Assembly: GCA_000688615.1 (NCBI GenBank) | Contig: JHVA01000001.1 | Coordinates: 186,001 to 250,000 of the forward strand | Direction of reading: 5' to 3' | From: Acidobacteriaceae bacterium KBS 146 | GTDB taxonomy: Bacteria; Acidobacteriota; Terriglobia; Terriglobales; Acidobacteriaceae | DNA length: 64,000 bases | Part shown: positions 5,347 through 31,788 of the stretch, one piece after another | Position numbering within the stretch: the first letter of the stretch is position 1 | Layout of the letters: every line of letters starts with the position of its first letter | Program-made: the position numbers and the translations under genes | The notes under the pieces: model-generated | Told to the model about the DNA's origin: nothing | What the model saw: only the letters and a program-made list of their open reading frames with translations | Databases searched by the model: none

Positions 5347-5423
<77 letters not shown>

Positions 5424-5517: not shown

Positions 5518-6840
5518 CTACGAGCTCCTCAAGGTCTTGTTTACAACTGCTGTGTTCGCCTCGCGTTTGGACTCCATCAGGGCGTTGCCGTAGACGTTCA
5601 TCGTGGTAGAGACCTGGGCATGCCGCATCAGCTTTTGTTGAATGCCGATGGGTGCTCCCGTGTCGTCAAGCCATGAACGGTACGTATGGCGGAAGGTGTG
5701 CCAGCCGACATGGCCGTACTTGCCTGCCGCCTCCCAGCGCTCATCGTGAATCGGTAGACGCTTTCCGTTGGGCACCGGCGAATCCGTGAGACACCAGACG
5801 CCGGCACCGGCCCCACACGTTGGACACGCCACGAGGCAGCACCATGCAGGACGGAAATAGTCCTGTTGGATGGGCGACGCGTGGTAGTGGCGTCCCGTGA
5901 CGGGACTCGTGAAGAGAAGATCGGATTCCTCAACCTCGATTCCGGTTCTCTCGAACGCCTCCCGGGCCTCTAGTTCGCATTGGCGTATCCAGTCCAACAG
6001 GATCGCCGCGAGGTCTGGATCGAGCGGCAACTCATCCTCGGAATACTCAGTCTTCACGAACTTGACCCGCCCGTGGACAACCGCGCGGAAGAGCTGAATG
6101 CTGAGCTTCTCAAAATGAATGTCCGGCTTCTCGATCGCGAGAACCTCTTCGGCGCGTACTCCTGAACAGATCGCCACCAGCACCATCGTGCGATAGGGCT
6201 GGGGCACGAGTTCAAAGCCCAAAAAGAACTGATCGACCGTCAGGATCAATGGCCGTTTGCGCCGCTTGCTGATCCCTTTGATCTCCACGAGTTGCATAGG
6301 ATTGCGCTGCCATTCGACCAGCTCCCAAAACATCGCCTTCTCGAACAAGCGGTGCATGACAGCCTTGATATGGCCTTTGGTCTTCGGTGCCAAATCAAGG
6401 CCCTTCAACCACTCCTGGATCTTCATCGGCTTCATCCGAGAGAGGCGGGTGGTTCCCCACTTCTCCCGAATACGCTTGATGTTGCTGAGGTAGCCTGAAG
6501 CCGTTGAATAGCTCAGTTCGCCGATGTCATCGCTTCGTTCACCTGGGCGCACGCTCTTGATTTCAAGCAAGCGTTCTTCGGTGATGAAACGATCAAGGAT
6601 GATGTCAAAGGTCGGGTCTAATACAGCGAGGGTTGGATTTTCATCGTTGAGTTTGAGCACAAACGATCCCAGATGCCTTTCGGCAGCGGTCTGTGTCGGG
6701 AACTGTTCCACGCTCAGGTACAAGGATTTTCTCTTATTGGTTTCGGGGTCTTGGTATCGGTATTCCCAAGCCCATTGATTGTCTGCCCGCGCAACTTTAC
6801 GGAGGGTGCCGCGCTGAAAACGCTGCCGTGTGAACTTCAA
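5518..6840 (-). CDS. int: Tyrosine recombinase (island integrase)
   Basis: 440 residues from a TTG start at 6840, preceded by AGGAG; this start overlaps the TGA of xis as TTGA, a sign of translational coupling. The reading frame is open further upstream, but that part overlaps xis and has no integrase features. There is an N-terminal arm/core-binding region, then the catalytic domain with Arg229 (CSGVRAEEV), HTFRH (His381, Arg384), His407 (LMRHAQV) and Tyr417 (MNVYGN). Between the first Arg box and HxxR is an insertion with five Cys (334, 335, 339, 342, 350; CPTCGAGAGVWC), a possible zinc knuckle. It probably catalyses recombination at the tRNA-fMet att sites. Confidence 0.95.
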   Translation of the reverse strand: MKFTRQRFQRGTLRKVARADNQWAWEYRYQDPETNKRKSLYLSVEQFPTQTAAERHLGSFVLKLNDENPTLAVLDPTFDIILDRFITEERLLEIKSVRPGERSDDIGELSYSTASGYLSNIKRIREKWGTTRLSRMKPMKIQEWLKGLDLAPKTKGHIKAVMHRLFEKAMFWELVEWQRNPMQLVEIKGISKRRKRPLILTVDQFFLGFELVPQPYRTMVLVAICSGVRAEEVLAIEKPDIHFEKLSIQLFRAVVHGRVKFVKTEYSEDELPLDPDLAAILLDWIRQCELEAREAFERTGIEVEESDLLFTSPVTGRHYHASPIQQDYFRPAWCCLVACPTCGAGAGVWCLTDSPVPNGKRLPIHDERWEAAGKYGHVGWHTFRHTYRSWLDDTGAPIGIQQKLMRHAQVSTTMNVYGNALMESKREANTAVVNKTLRSS

Positions 6841-7094
6841 GGACGCTCCTGTCCAGTCACAGCGGCCTGATCGGTTGTATTCGATTTTAGGCCCGTCTCC
6901 AGCCACGAATCCAAGGAACTTAATCGGAATCTCCAACGTTTTCCTACCTTGAAGGCGGGCACTTCTTTGTGGCGTGCCTTGCCCTCTAAGGTCTTCCAAT
7001 GCATCCCCAAAACCGAAGCGGCTTCGTGAAGATCGAGCAATGGCTCGAATGCAGGAATTAGCCTGCGGGGGTTGGTTTTTGCGGTTGAGAGCAT
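6837..7094 (-). CDS. xis: Excisionase-type helix-turn-helix protein
   Basis: 85 residues with a MerR/excisionase-like winged helix: LLDLHEAASVLGMHWKTLE (about 19-37) followed by VPAFKVGKRWRFRLSSLDSWL (about 45-65), the usual order of helix-turn-helix and wing in Xis-like proteins. A strong ribosome site (GGGAGG) precedes the ATG. The stop overlaps the integrase TTG by three bases, so the two are probably translated as a coupled pair from one transcript. It likely directs excision and may repress its own promoter. Confidence 0.85.
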   Translation of the reverse strand: MLSTAKTNPRRLIPAFEPLLDLHEAASVLGMHWKTLEGKARHKEVPAFKVGKRWRFRLSSLDSWLETGLKSNTTDQAAVTGQERP

Positions 7095-7378
7095 GGAACC
7101 TCCCGTCGAAGCGGCCCCGGCGCGGCTCAGGGCAGAGATAACGTACCGTCCTCCGAAGATGGCCCACCATGCGATACGGTGTCCAATTCACAGAGGGAGG
7201 CTACTTATCAACAGGGAGAATAAGGGTCATTACGTTTACCTTTTGTGCGCAGGCTGCATCTAAATCCGCAATGTTTTAGCGGTGGGACGTCCAGCGCGCA
7301 ACCAGTTCATTTGATACCGCTTATCGCTTCACCAGCGCGTAGTCCCATCCCATCTACTCAGAGTTTATGGGAGCCCGT

Positions 7379-9032: not shown

Positions 9033-10202
9033 ATGGCAACTGTTGCGGTACCCATTACGTATGCGGCGAAACGTGAGACGGATATTCCCTGGTGCTTGTG
9101 GTGCTTAGCGCTAGCTGTGACTTCAGCATCGATCGGTGGGAGATGGGATGTGTCCTGGCATCAATCGATCGGTCGGGACACTTTCTGGACCCCGGCGCAC
9201 ATTGCAATTTACCTCTGTGGTGTCCTGGCGGGCATCGCGTGTGGATACTTGATCCTCAAGGCTACGTTTCGGCGACCCACGGAGCTGATCGCAACGTCTG
9301 TACAAGTCGTGGGGCTCAGTGGTCCTCTCGGTGCATTTCTAGCGGCATGGGGCGGGCTAGCGATGTTGACCTCTGCACCGTTCGATAACTGGTGGCATAA
9401 CGCCTATGGGCTAGATGTGAAGATTGTCAGCCCCCCTCATACTTTGTTGATACTGGGCGATGTAGCGATCGAGGCTGGGGCATTGCTACTCGCTATGTCG
9501 GCCTTGAACCGAGCCGAAGGCCAGCCAACACTCTTTTCGCGATTGCGAAAGCTGGTACTGTACCTCTCCAGTGTTCTGCTCATGTCCGTCATGTTTTTCT
9601 GTATGGAGTTCACACGCGACGTCCTCCTTCATACCTCTCTCCCCTACATTGCTCTAAGCATCGGCGTTCCGGTGTGTTTTGCCGCAACGTCGCGAGCTTC
9701 TCGATACAAATGGGCAGCCACATCGATCGCAGCCCTCTACATTGCGTCCGTCATTGGATTCATCTTGATCCTGCCGCTATTTCCGGCGGAACCGAAACTG
9801 GGACCCGTCTATCAGCCGGTCACACATTTCGTCCCTCCACAATTTCCTATGCTTCTGCTTGTTCCAGCGATCCTGCTGGATCTTTTCTGGACGAGAGTAG
9901 GAAGTCTCGGCAAGCTGTGGGCAGCTGCACTGAGCGGGCCTCTGTTTGTCTTTAGCTTGTTGGCGGTTGAGTGGCCTTTCGCCAGCTTTCTCATGACTCC
10001 CGCATCCAATAACCGATTCTTCGCCACAGGTTCTCATCCCTTTTCCGTACCTCCATGGGCACCAGTCGTGCTCCGCCAATTCATTCGCAGCCCACAGCCT
10101 TCCATGCTTTTAAAGGGCCTGGGAATAGCGACGGTGTGCGCCGTGATCAGTGTGTGGCTCGGACTAACTGTTGGTGACTGGATGCGAAAGATACAGCGAT
10201 GA
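9033..10202 (+). CDS. PmoC/AmoC-like polytopic membrane protein with two putative copper sites
   Basis: 389 residues with about ten predicted membrane helices. Two successive helix hairpins carry the same ligand pattern: Asp39-x3-His43-x12-His56, the last in RDTFWTPAH (48-56), and Asp118-x3-His122-x13-His136, in FDNWWH (117-122) and PPH (134-136). In copper membrane monooxygenase subunit C, the CuC ligands are D-x3-H-x12-H and the CuD ligands N-x3-H-x13-H (Methylococcus numbering 156/160/173 and 227/231/245), with an RDT-x3-P-x-H string at the first site. Spacing and order agree here; Asp replaces Asn at the second site. The extra 230 C-terminal residues (about six helices) could replace a PmoA-like subunit, since no separate gene exists. 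AGGAG precedes the ATG; the stop overlaps the next start as ATGA. The gene is certain; the homology is inferred by eye. Confidence 0.6.
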   Translation: MATVAVPITYAAKRETDIPWCLWCLALAVTSASIGGRWDVSWHQSIGRDTFWTPAHIAIYLCGVLAGIACGYLILKATFRRPTELIATSVQVVGLSGPLGAFLAAWGGLAMLTSAPFDNWWHNAYGLDVKIVSPPHTLLILGDVAIEAGALLLAMSALNRAEGQPTLFSRLRKLVLYLSSVLLMSVMFFCMEFTRDVLLHTSLPYIALSIGVPVCFAATSRASRYKWAATSIAALYIASVIGFILILPLFPAEPKLGPVYQPVTHFVPPQFPMLLLVPAILLDLFWTRVGSLGKLWAAALSGPLFVFSLLAVEWPFASFLMTPASNNRFFATGSHPFSVPPWAPVVLRQFIRSPQPSMLLKGLGIATVCAVISVWLGLTVGDWMRKIQR

Positions 10203-11740
10203 AAAGATGGAAATGGTTGCCTTGTGTTTTGGTTCTGTGTTCAGCGACATCCGGATATGCTCATGTAGGGAGCCCCGACGTTTACGCTGAAGGACAAGCG
10301 GGCCCCTACAAGATGTCGATCGTGCTGCGCCCACCGCTCGTAATCCCGGGCGTTGCAGAGATTGAGGTACGAACAGAATCTCCTGGAGTTGATAACATCA
10401 CGATCACTCCGATGCCTTTGACCGGGGAGGCTGCGAAGCACCCTCCGGTCCCAGACACCATGCAGAAGCCATCGAAAGATGTTCAATTCTTCACAGGCCA
10501 CCTTTGGATTATGGGTGCTGGGTCGTGGCAGGTTCGCTTCGTGGTCAATGGCAATAACGGAGAGGGAACCTTGTCTGTCCCCTTGCCCGCAACCGCAACC
10601 GTCACGCAGTCAATGCATAAGGATCTTGGAACGCTGCTTGCGGTTCTTGGAATGGTCCTTTTGTTAGGCATGGTGGGTATCGTGGGTGCTGCATCAAGCA
10701 AAGCGATGGTGAAACCGGGACAGACCAGCTCGGCTACAGACACAAAGCGAGGCCGCATTGCCATGGCAATCGCATCGCTCGCGCTGCTGGTGGCCGTTGT
10801 TTTTGGAGATCACTGGTGGACGGTCGATGCAGCGCAATATGCCGGCAACATCTATAAACCTCTGCAAATGGCCTCTGCTTTAGAAGACGGAAATGTCCTT
10901 GATCTAAAGCTGCGCGATCCCGGCTGGCTTCGTCAACGAGGTATGGACGATTTTATTCCCGATCACAATCACGAGATGCATCTCTATGCGATTCGGTGGC
11001 CAGATATGGACGTCCTCTTTCATTTACATCCTCAACCGACCGGAGCCGGGGAATTTCGGCTTGCATTGCCCTCCATGCCTGCGGGCGACTATCGACTCTA
11101 TGCGGATGTGGTCCATGCCAGTGGCTTTCCCGAGACTGCGGTCTCGGAACTCACTTTTCCGACAGTCCACGGGCTTCCACTGCGCGGCGACGACGCCGAA
11201 GGTAAAGCGCAGCCGGTTACCTCCGGCGTTGCCGCTCGGAAGCGACAGGTTGAGGCAGGTGACACGAAACAGAGCTCGAAGCAGCGTTTCAAGCTTCCAG
11301 ATGGCTACACCATGATCTGGAAAACACCTGCGTCACAGATTCCGAGAAAGGCTGAGACATTTCGATTCGAACTCCTGGACCCGGAGGGGAAACCACCTCG
11401 TGATGTTGCCCTTTACATGGGGATGCTTGGCCATGCTGCCTTCGTAAAATCCGATGGGAGTGTTTTTGCTCACGTGCACCCCGATGGCACCATGGCAATG
11501 GCGGCAATGGTTATGGCAAACTCCAATGCCTCAAAGAACGATCAGAGTCATTCGAATGCAAGCAATATGGGAACAATGCCTGGGATGGATATGGTCAGCA
11601 ATGGCCTGCCCAATACCGTCTCCTTTCCCTATGGCTTTCCATCGTCGGGCCTTTATCGGATCATCGTGCAAATGAAACATGGCGACACGATTGAAACCGG
11701 GGTATTCGATACCGACGTGCCAATGTTGGGTGGCTCCTGA
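10199..11740 (+). CDS. Two-TM periplasmic copper-type protein, PmoB-like topology (YtkA/CopC-like domains)
   Basis: 513 residues. The signal peptide ends at GYA (19-21), leaving His22 as predicted mature N-terminus, the arrangement that binds copper in CopC and PmoB. A periplasmic beta domain (22-140) is followed by two membrane helices (about 143-165 and 187-203), then two further beta domains (about 228-322 and 365-505). These are rich in possible metal ligands: HNHEMH (256-261), HLHP (275-278), HVHP (425-428), and a Met-rich stretch including MGTMPGMDM (457-465). This order (signal, domain, two helices, domain) is that of PmoB, although the domains look more like YtkA/CopC. Its start overlaps the membrane protein gene by four bases, so the two are probably made together. 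Copper binding is inferred. Confidence 0.6.
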   Translation: MKRWKWLPCVLVLCSATSGYAHVGSPDVYAEGQAGPYKMSIVLRPPLVIPGVAEIEVRTESPGVDNITITPMPLTGEAAKHPPVPDTMQKPSKDVQFFTGHLWIMGAGSWQVRFVVNGNNGEGTLSVPLPATATVTQSMHKDLGTLLAVLGMVLLLGMVGIVGAASSKAMVKPGQTSSATDTKRGRIAMAIASLALLVAVVFGDHWWTVDAAQYAGNIYKPLQMASALEDGNVLDLKLRDPGWLRQRGMDDFIPDHNHEMHLYAIRWPDMDVLFHLHPQPTGAGEFRLALPSMPAGDYRLYADVVHASGFPETAVSELTFPTVHGLPLRGDDAEGKAQPVTSGVAARKRQVEAGDTKQSSKQRFKLPDGYTMIWKTPASQIPRKAETFRFELLDPEGKPPRDVALYMGMLGHAAFVKSDGSVFAHVHPDGTMAMAAMVMANSNASKNDQSHSNASNMGTMPGMDMVSNGLPNTVSFPYGFPSSGLYRIIVQMKHGDTIETGVFDTDVPMLGGS

Positions 11741-11751
11741 AGGGAGGCTAC

Positions 11752-12213
11752 ATGCACTTAGAAACGAGAATTCTAGTTTCGCGAACACCTGAAGAGGTGT
11801 GGAGCTATCTGAGCGATTGCTCGAATGTTCCTCAATGGGATCGTGGCGTAGGAAGCGTGTGCCAGAACCCCGATACTGCGCCCGGAGTTGGCTTCGAATT
11901 TTCCACATTTGGCATCGTGGATAAACGAGGTACCGATACAAAGCGTGGGAAGATGTCGTATCGCGTCAGCAGAGCTGACCCGGTAGAGGGAGCTACGGTG
12001 CAGTTGACCAGCTCAGATGGCAACGCCAGATATTTCAAGCGAGCTGAATGGCGCTTCAAAGTCGATCCAGCTCCGGAAGGTGCATGGATTACATGCGCTG
12101 CCCAATTTACGCTCCGTTTCAGATACATCTTCCTGGCCCCCGTGTTCTCCATGATGAGAGGGGCGATACATCGTGACCTCGAAAGTCTCAAGAGAGTATT
12201 AGAGACTGTCTGA
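11752..12213 (+). CDS. SRPBCC (START-like) superfamily protein
   Basis: 153 residues with the polyketide-cyclase/START pattern: an N-terminal strand then RTPEEVWSYLSDCSNVPQWD (11-30), a typical SRPBCC opening, a central beta sheet, and a long C-terminal helix after LAPVFSMMRGAIHRDLESL (about 128-146). Such domains form a hydrophobic pocket for lipids, aromatics or polyketides. It starts 11 bp after the copper-type protein, with a strong GGGAGG site, so it is the third gene of the same operon. It may bind a substrate, product or lipid of that assembly; this is inference from context. Confidence 0.8.
   Translation: MHLETRILVSRTPEEVWSYLSDCSNVPQWDRGVGSVCQNPDTAPGVGFEFSTFGIVDKRGTDTKRGKMSYRVSRADPVEGATVQLTSSDGNARYFKRAEWRFKVDPAPEGAWITCAAQFTLRFRYIFLAPVFSMMRGAIHRDLESLKRVLETV

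Positions 12214-31741: not shown

Positions 31742-31788
<47 letters not shown>

Follow-up and report, generated by a model that had tools for sequence, protein, structure and literature searches.

A probable divergent member of the copper membrane monooxygenase superfamily, encoded by a gene pair on a genomic island of Acidobacteriaceae bacterium KBS 146

Aerobic methane oxidation and nitrification both begin with copper membrane monooxygenases (CuMMOs), enzymes whose active site is still debated. Here we analyze two genes in a 64,000-nucleotide stretch of the genome of Acidobacteriaceae bacterium KBS 146 (contig JHVA01000001.1, positions 186,001 to 250,000; hereafter the window, to which all coordinates refer) that an initial annotation had read as a possible divergent CuMMO-like operon. 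The first gene, P1 (9033-10202, forward strand), encodes an integral membrane protein of 389 amino acids (aa) that resembles a fusion of PmoC and PmoA, and the second, P2 (10199-11740, forward strand), encodes a membrane-anchored, predicted periplasmic protein of 513 aa in the position of PmoB. Both open reading frames (ORFs) lie where they had been placed and share a 4-base overlap. Within P1, all on the same strand, we distinguish a PmoC-like half (residues 21-160; 9093-9512) with modelled helices at residues 20-45, 54-80, 99-125, and 134-160; candidate CuC-type ligands D39, H43, and H56 with R48 between them (9147-9200) and candidate CuD-type ligands D118, H122, and H136 (9384-9440), both assigned by alignment with canonical PmoC; and a PmoA-like half delimited by structural matches (residues 163-389; 9519-10199). 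P2, likewise on the forward strand, begins with a signal peptide (10199-10261) with predicted cleavage between A21 and H22, followed by a β domain of CrdA-like fold that starts at His22 (10262-10591; core at residues 28-131), two modelled helices at residues 141-168 and 179-215, which we take as a transmembrane hairpin (10619-10843), and two further β domains (residues 223-320 and 361-507) with HxHP motifs and a Met-rich loop (10865-11719).

The counts below refer to a family of 81 loci, comprising the best 80 of 110 relatives from a scan of species genomes (L002-L081) and the copy in the window. The pattern that had drawn attention to P1, D39-x3-H43-x12-H56 followed by D118-x3-H122-x13-H136, is indeed present. 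In the particulate methane monooxygenase (pMMO) of Methylococcus, CuC is bound by Asp156, His160, and His173 and CuD by Asn227, His231, and His245, with Arg165 near the site (PMC12576850, available portion). The P1 spacings are exactly those of the two pMMO sites, as the initial annotation had stated, except that the Asn of CuD is Asp in P1, and R48 falls at the position of the second-sphere Arg165. The joint pattern D-x3-H-x12-H...[DN]-x3-H-x13-H was absent from all 200,000 shuffled versions of P1 and from the 978 other genes predicted in the loci; it is found in 80 of the 81 family members, the exception (L080) beginning at a contig end. On alignment of the homologues, H56, D118, H122, and H136 are conserved in 81/81 and D39 and H43 in 80/81, the remaining row being a gap in a contig-end sequence. 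R48 is present in 81/81 in the alignment (80/81 and one gap in a second count), and D49, D128, H200, and D283 are each conserved in 81/81. A divergent member (G059/L113; 280 bits) keeps the ligand motif and R48 and has its own P2 with an Ala-His start. P1 is under purifying selection in two close comparisons, with ratios of nonsynonymous to synonymous substitution rates of 0.23 against L002 and 0.15 against L003; the comparison with L019 is saturated.

The homology of the N-terminal half of P1 to PmoC is well supported at the sequence level. A phmmer search of the PDB with P1 gave nine matches at an E value of ≤10, all of them PmoC or AmoC chains (best, 7.8e-5), and the AmoC models of Pfam, TIGR, and NCBIfam match it with E values of 1.4e-4 to 3.5e-5. 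In a controlled profile comparison, all eight canonical PmoC proteins scored 30.2 to 42.2, versus at most 21.6 for 58 multi-transmembrane controls and 21.7 for the best PmoA. Conversely, a hidden Markov model (HMM) of the family recovered the canonical PmoC proteins of loci L091 (5.9e-7) and L089 (7.4e-6), these E values referring to a small search space made up of the ORFs from 11 loci. The match begins at about residue 109 of PmoC, and therefore the N-terminal helices of PmoC are missing from P1. In a tree of 30 of 82 fusion proteins, eight canonical PmoC proteins, and one of the single-chain relatives described below, canonical PmoC is set apart with a support of 100/100; the long-branched L084 and L113 remained unplaced.

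For the C-terminal half the case is structural. A model of P1 built from 81 sequences has a predicted local distance difference test score (pLDDT) of 91.4 and a predicted template modelling score of 0.90. In a VIA comparison of this model the best 12 entries are all PmoA or AmoA (Z, 14.7-16.0; root mean square deviation, 3.5-5.2 Å), the matches spanning 187-216 residues and falling on model residues 163-389 in eight of the 12. Among the Foldseek rows considered (50 of 284), the five with a probability of at least 0.5 are PmoA, PmoC, or AmoC chains, with E values of only 0.077-1.8. In the model the C-terminal half thus has the PmoA fold, and PmoA has probably been fused to the PmoC-like half, as the initial annotation had guessed from the lack of a PmoA gene and a length about 100 residues greater than that of PmoC; in agreement with that claim, neither PF02461 (PmoA) nor PF04744 (PmoB) found a match in the KBS 146 genome at an E value of ≤10, and a repeat search at ≤1 was also negative, a weak result as control genomes were equally silent. 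Because homology to PmoC in one half is joined with a PmoA fold in the other, P1 looks like a PmoC-PmoA fusion, and since the two halves resemble subunits that belong to a single enzyme and follow each other in its canonical C-A order, coincidence is unlikely.

P2, modelled with a pLDDT of 91.0, was described initially as PmoB-like in topology and as starting at His22 after processing. The layout of signal peptide, His22, β domain, two helices, and β domains stands, and P2 can be described as having the plan of PmoB with one additional β domain at the gene position of PmoB; detectable PmoB homology and a CuB HxH motif are lacking. The A21-H22 pair is conserved, which agrees with a mature N terminus at His22: H22 is found in 72 of 73 rows of the P2 alignment, with one gap (this alignment leaves out matches shorter than 350 aa, in L007, L040, and L064), and it is invariant in the 69 rows of alignment A2, which also leaves out the incomplete L041, L062, L076, and L080. 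The suspicion that the P2 domains are closer to YtkA or CopC was apt in that the N-terminal domain matches the copper-resistance protein CrdA in VIA (Z, 10.5 and 10.4 to 9ll2 and 9ll4), although an unrelated CBM56 domain reaches 10.6. PmoB is not among the fold matches listed by Foldseek or VIA for P2, the Foldseek matches being mostly multidomain immunoglobulin-like proteins with low TM-scores; by Pfam, YtkA matches two and CopC one of the 69 P2 members at an E value of ≤0.1. The HxHP motifs (H275/H277 and H425/H427) are lost from the divergent P2 of L113.

The C-terminal domains of P2 are related to a protein of Mycobacterium dioxanotrophicus (1.6e-19, small set), which in turn has matches in 133 plasmid records; P2 itself gave no match to plasmid records. 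The gene for this relative (L091:762-1823) is flanked by sigC and zf-HC2 genes, with a canonical hmoCAB operon following about 3 kb downstream. Of the five places read for this protein and its relatives (L091 and L126-L129), three adjoin genes for heavy-metal P-type ATPases or metal-sensitive regulators, and the other two are near monooxygenase clusters. The relative in M. chubuense NBB4 adjoins a zf-HC2 gene as well, close to a further monooxygenase cluster.

The record titles of the family include Acidobacteria, Gemmatimonadetes, Verrucomicrobia, Binataceae, Eisenbacteria, Deltaproteobacteria, Rhodanobacteraceae, and Betaproteobacteria, though those given to metagenome bins may be in error; named isolates with members are Acidipila rosea, Silvibacterium bohemicum, Granulicella mallensis, Bryocella elongata, and Occallatibacter savannae. 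With the family profile, P1 was found in 22 of 396 Acidobacteriota genomes and eight of 210 genera, and its distribution is therefore patchy. The AmoC profile at an E value of ≤0.001 recovers just two of 297 Acidobacteriota genomes, one of them KBS 146, below the cut-off. A canonical PmoC scoring above the cut-off (293.5 bits) was seen in one of the 297 genomes (L082; G046:C71), apparently at a contig end as judged from locus length, and PF02461 was not found in that genome. Viral contigs yielded no confirmed relatives in three scans, one of which was for PmoA. A P2 homologue was found by phmmer in 76 of the 81 loci and neither by phmmer nor by HMM in L033, L044, L050, L051, and L063; four of these five assemblies, identified by contig name, hold a second P1 locus with P2 (L041, whose P2 runs into the contig end, L035, L039, and L032). 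Such lone P1 copies are reminiscent of lone pmoC and amoC genes, lone amoC having also been seen on Methylocystis plasmids. One assembly carries two copies of the family (L002 and L003). Broken P1 copies were observed in G167:C28 and G213:C14/C37, and G285, of the same genus, has an intact P1 with P2.

In KBS 146, the pair is carried by a 26.4-kb integrative element at tRNA-Met (5347-31786), as the initial annotation had proposed in calling it an acidobacterial island. The left end is the 3′ end of the tRNA-Met gene (5347-5423), where a direct repeat (5379-5423, forward strand) is identical in 43 of 45 bases to the repeat at the right end (31742-31786, forward strand); a gene named from its sequence as a tyrosine-recombinase-like integrase follows the left end (5518-7191, reverse strand), and the G+C fraction is 0.541 inside versus 0.561 and 0.576 outside. 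Other cargo includes LysR, histidine kinase, and FAD-dependent hydroxylase-type genes. The fetched stretches of 14 close loci (L002-L006, L009, L010, L012-L014, L016, L018, L019, and L023) contain no tRNA, and L027 has a distant tRNA-Gln. An SRPBCC gene (11752-12213; PF10604, 6e-15) is present 3′ of P2 as described, although it is no part of the P1-P2 system: among the 80 other loci, some of which are truncated at contig ends, phmmer detects a relative in L002 and L003 alone. The 20 adjoining genes assigned by Pfam have mixed functions; of two hydrocarbon-operon queries run against the 81 loci, methanol dehydrogenase found no match and AMP-binding matched two. The 25 matches of pyrroloquinoline quinone dehydrogenase type in the KBS 146 genome, none above the cut-off, decide nothing.

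A second architecture is represented by single-chain actinobacterial proteins in seven plasmid records (e.g., WP_138230750.1), of which we examined six, leaving out that of Streptomyces sp. FR1. They are 475-496 aa long, and in all six both ligand motifs are present, the CuD Asn being replaced by Asp. In the five full-length chains, Ala-His-Asp-Pro-Gly-Gln-Gly and then a further domain come after a hydrophobic stretch, so that, as in P2, Ala-His precedes a β domain, the two forms differing in that these are one chain and several lie near copper-resistance genes. In L084 and L121-L124, cleavage of an internal signal peptide looks set to expose an N-terminal His-Asp-Pro-Gly-Gln-Gly. The Leifsonia protein is encoded near a metal-sensitive regulator, heavy-metal P-type ATPases, a YHS protein, a multicopper oxidase, and a four-helix copper protein; that of Streptomyces sp. 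F2 near a multicopper oxidase, a cupredoxin, and DUF305; and that of S. mirabilis near a heavy-metal-associated protein, a P-type ATPase, and a cupredoxin. Both Mycolicibacterium neighborhoods have BlaI/CopY-family regulators, with YHS in M. aubagnense and TlpA/CcdA and a heavy-metal-associated gene in M. chubuense, and the Rubrobacter neighborhood has no copper genes. Fourteen metal-resistance-type queries taken from L121-L124 found no match in the 81 two-gene loci (blastp, 1e-6), a search over flanks of at most 8 kb and ORFs of at least 80 aa in which short queries are insensitive and other copper families, such as resistance-nodulation-division pumps, were not asked for.

Several parallels to the known systems can be drawn. 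With pMMO, ammonia monooxygenase (AMO), and hydrocarbon monooxygenase (PmoC, PF04896; PmoA, PF02461; PmoB, PF04744), the pair shares the CuC D-x3-H-x12-H motif, the His pair and spacing of CuD, the second-sphere Arg, the PmoA fold, the C-A-B order, and a B-position protein with signal, N-terminal His, β domain, two transmembrane helices, and β domain. Unlike them, P1 fuses C and A without the N-terminal helices of PmoC, and the genes are two in the order CA-B rather than three in the order C-A-B (for the latter, see the accessible text of PMC6215863). We do not class the pair as a classical CuMMO, since it falls below the curated cut-offs, lacks the CuB HxH, and departs from the three-gene organization. 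According to what is accessible of PMC9038741, the divergent CuMMO of “Candidatus Angelarchaeales” is comparable in its very low identity to classical CuMMOs (means of 8-21% there), its conserved C site, and its N-terminally truncated C subunit, and differs in having separate C, A, X, and B genes, in keeping the CuB histidines, and in that a D site was not observed. The CrdA, CopC, and YtkA domains are like the N-terminal domain of P2 in fold; in P2 this domain is fused to a PmoB-like transmembrane hairpin and further domains. P1 has no CopD match in Pfam at an E value of ≤1 (PF05425, which we take to be the CopD membrane domain). No description of such a CuMMO fusion was found among the open-access papers that we searched, most subscription papers and bioRxiv preprints lying outside that scope; the accessible parts of PMC9038741, PMC6215863, PMC10030591, PMC12533140, and PMC8262859 report none, nor do they contain the word “fused.”

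Several observations weigh against reading the pair as an O2-activating CuMMO branch. The AmoC scores of P1 lie under the curated cut-offs of PF04896 (21.8 versus 26.7), TIGR03078 (22.6 versus 280.6), and NF041641 (23.2 versus 319), only six of the 81 members reach an AmoC match at an E value of 0.01, and a PDB search with a profile of the 81 members retrieved no PmoC. Structural comparison, which had been suggested as a check, placed the C-terminal half on PmoA/AmoA and did not discriminate for the N-terminal half, whose Z values to PmoC in VIA (7.8 to 7s4m_C and 6.8 to 7yzy_C) are within the range of unrelated helical rows (up to 10.4). By sequence, PmoA is not separated from controls in comparison with the C-terminal half (ranks 6, 12, 17, and 37 of 70), and a profile of four PmoA sequences, colinear over 187 columns at 16% identity, reaches only P = 0.028. 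The Asn of CuD is Asp in all 81 members. P2 has no sequence signal to PmoB above controls (ranks 23, 50, 53, and 64 of 204 for the N-terminal part and 5, 13, 16, and 53 for the C-terminal part, disregarding two of the 200 random controls, from L062 and L080, that are P2 relatives), and no conserved HxH was found in its residues 22-131, H22 being kept. The neighborhoods revealed no conserved third gene or pathway beside P1-P2. Finally, three of the six single-chain neighborhoods (Leifsonia, Streptomyces sp. F2, and S. mirabilis) resemble copper-resistance loci.

Weighing these findings, we propose that P1 and P2 represent a divergent two-protein CuMMO branch in which a copper C/D site activates O2 and P2 serves in copper loading, a statement to which, as a whole, we give a probability of about 0.5. 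Of its parts, homology to the CuMMOs, the core of the initial annotation, is very strongly indicated by the PmoC relationship, the modelled PmoA fold, the invariant ligands, and the conserved gene pair; copper binding by the pair is quite likely; and oxygenase or oxidase catalysis stands at even odds. Mechanistically, P1 would be a head-to-tail fusion of a PmoC core with PmoA, arranged as in the canonical C-A gene order, and would hold copper in a membrane-embedded C/D-type site (D39/H43/H56, D118/H122/H136, and R48), presumably near the periplasmic face. P2 would pack on P1 from the periplasm by its two transmembrane helices and may supply or hold copper through the N-terminal His22 and, in most members, the HxHP and Met-rich domains. 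The C/D-site copper could be reduced from the quinol pool and would most likely activate O2 for attack on a small or lipophilic substrate. Two points lead us to favor a probable O2-activating copper protein of the CuMMO superfamily: the pair retains the C/D ligands together with the second-sphere Arg, the PmoA half, and the CA-B order, and our 14 queries detected no metal-resistance genes in the flanks of the two-gene loci.

The actinobacterial branch makes copper handling a strong rival, and we accord it a substantial, if minority, probability. P1 would then be a CuMMO-fold protein that binds, oxidizes, or moves copper in the manner of CopCD, with P2 as its periplasmic copper-binding partner and no oxygenase involved. 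The three copper-resistance-like neighborhoods of single chains with both ligand motifs, the metal-resistance genes that adjoin P2 C-terminal domain relatives at three of the five places read, and the resemblance of the P2 N-terminal domain to CrdA all speak for it. It fits less well with the absence of matches to the 14 metal-resistance-type queries in the flanks of the 81 two-gene loci, the absence of a CopD match for P1, the P2-domain relative upstream of hmoCAB, and the Rubrobacter record; moreover, the retention of a PmoA half together with all C/D ligands and R48 is more than copper binding would seem to need. A degenerate CuMMO descendant that binds copper in a structural or regulatory role without turnover would account for the lack of conserved metabolic neighbors, the patchy occurrence (22/396 genomes), the five of 81 P1 copies without P2, and the fragments in G167 and G213; we consider it improbable given first-sphere ligands that are invariant across phyla and the purifying selection in two close comparisons. 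That P1 is a membrane protein without relation to the CuMMOs and bears the motif by chance, as weak pairwise scores and the noisy structural Z values of helical proteins might suggest, is very improbable in view of the 0 of 200,000 shuffles, the eight of eight PmoC proteins above 58 controls, and the partner subunits of one enzyme found in canonical order in its two halves.

A more far-reaching formulation, which we offer tentatively and at somewhat less than even odds, is that the family is a deep, unrecognized sister branch of all known CuMMOs, an active two-polypeptide copper oxygenase of a CA fusion and a copper-loading B-like subunit that is distributed among soil Acidobacteriota, Gemmatimonadota, and further phyla. 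We know of no clear outgroup to the CuMMO superfamily. Archaeal AMO has been called a logical outgroup on total distance (PMC6215863, accessible portion). If the formulation is true, methane and ammonia monooxygenase would gain, in the sister branch and its single-chain cousin, both an outgroup and a plausible ancestor that handled copper. The invariance of the C/D ligands without a CuB HxH bears directly on which CuMMO site matters, and the presence of members in named isolates means that their function could be tested. If they are catalytic, an oxygenase of soil bacteria would be escaping the AmoC profile, which detects two of 297 genomes, versus 22 of 396 with the family profile.

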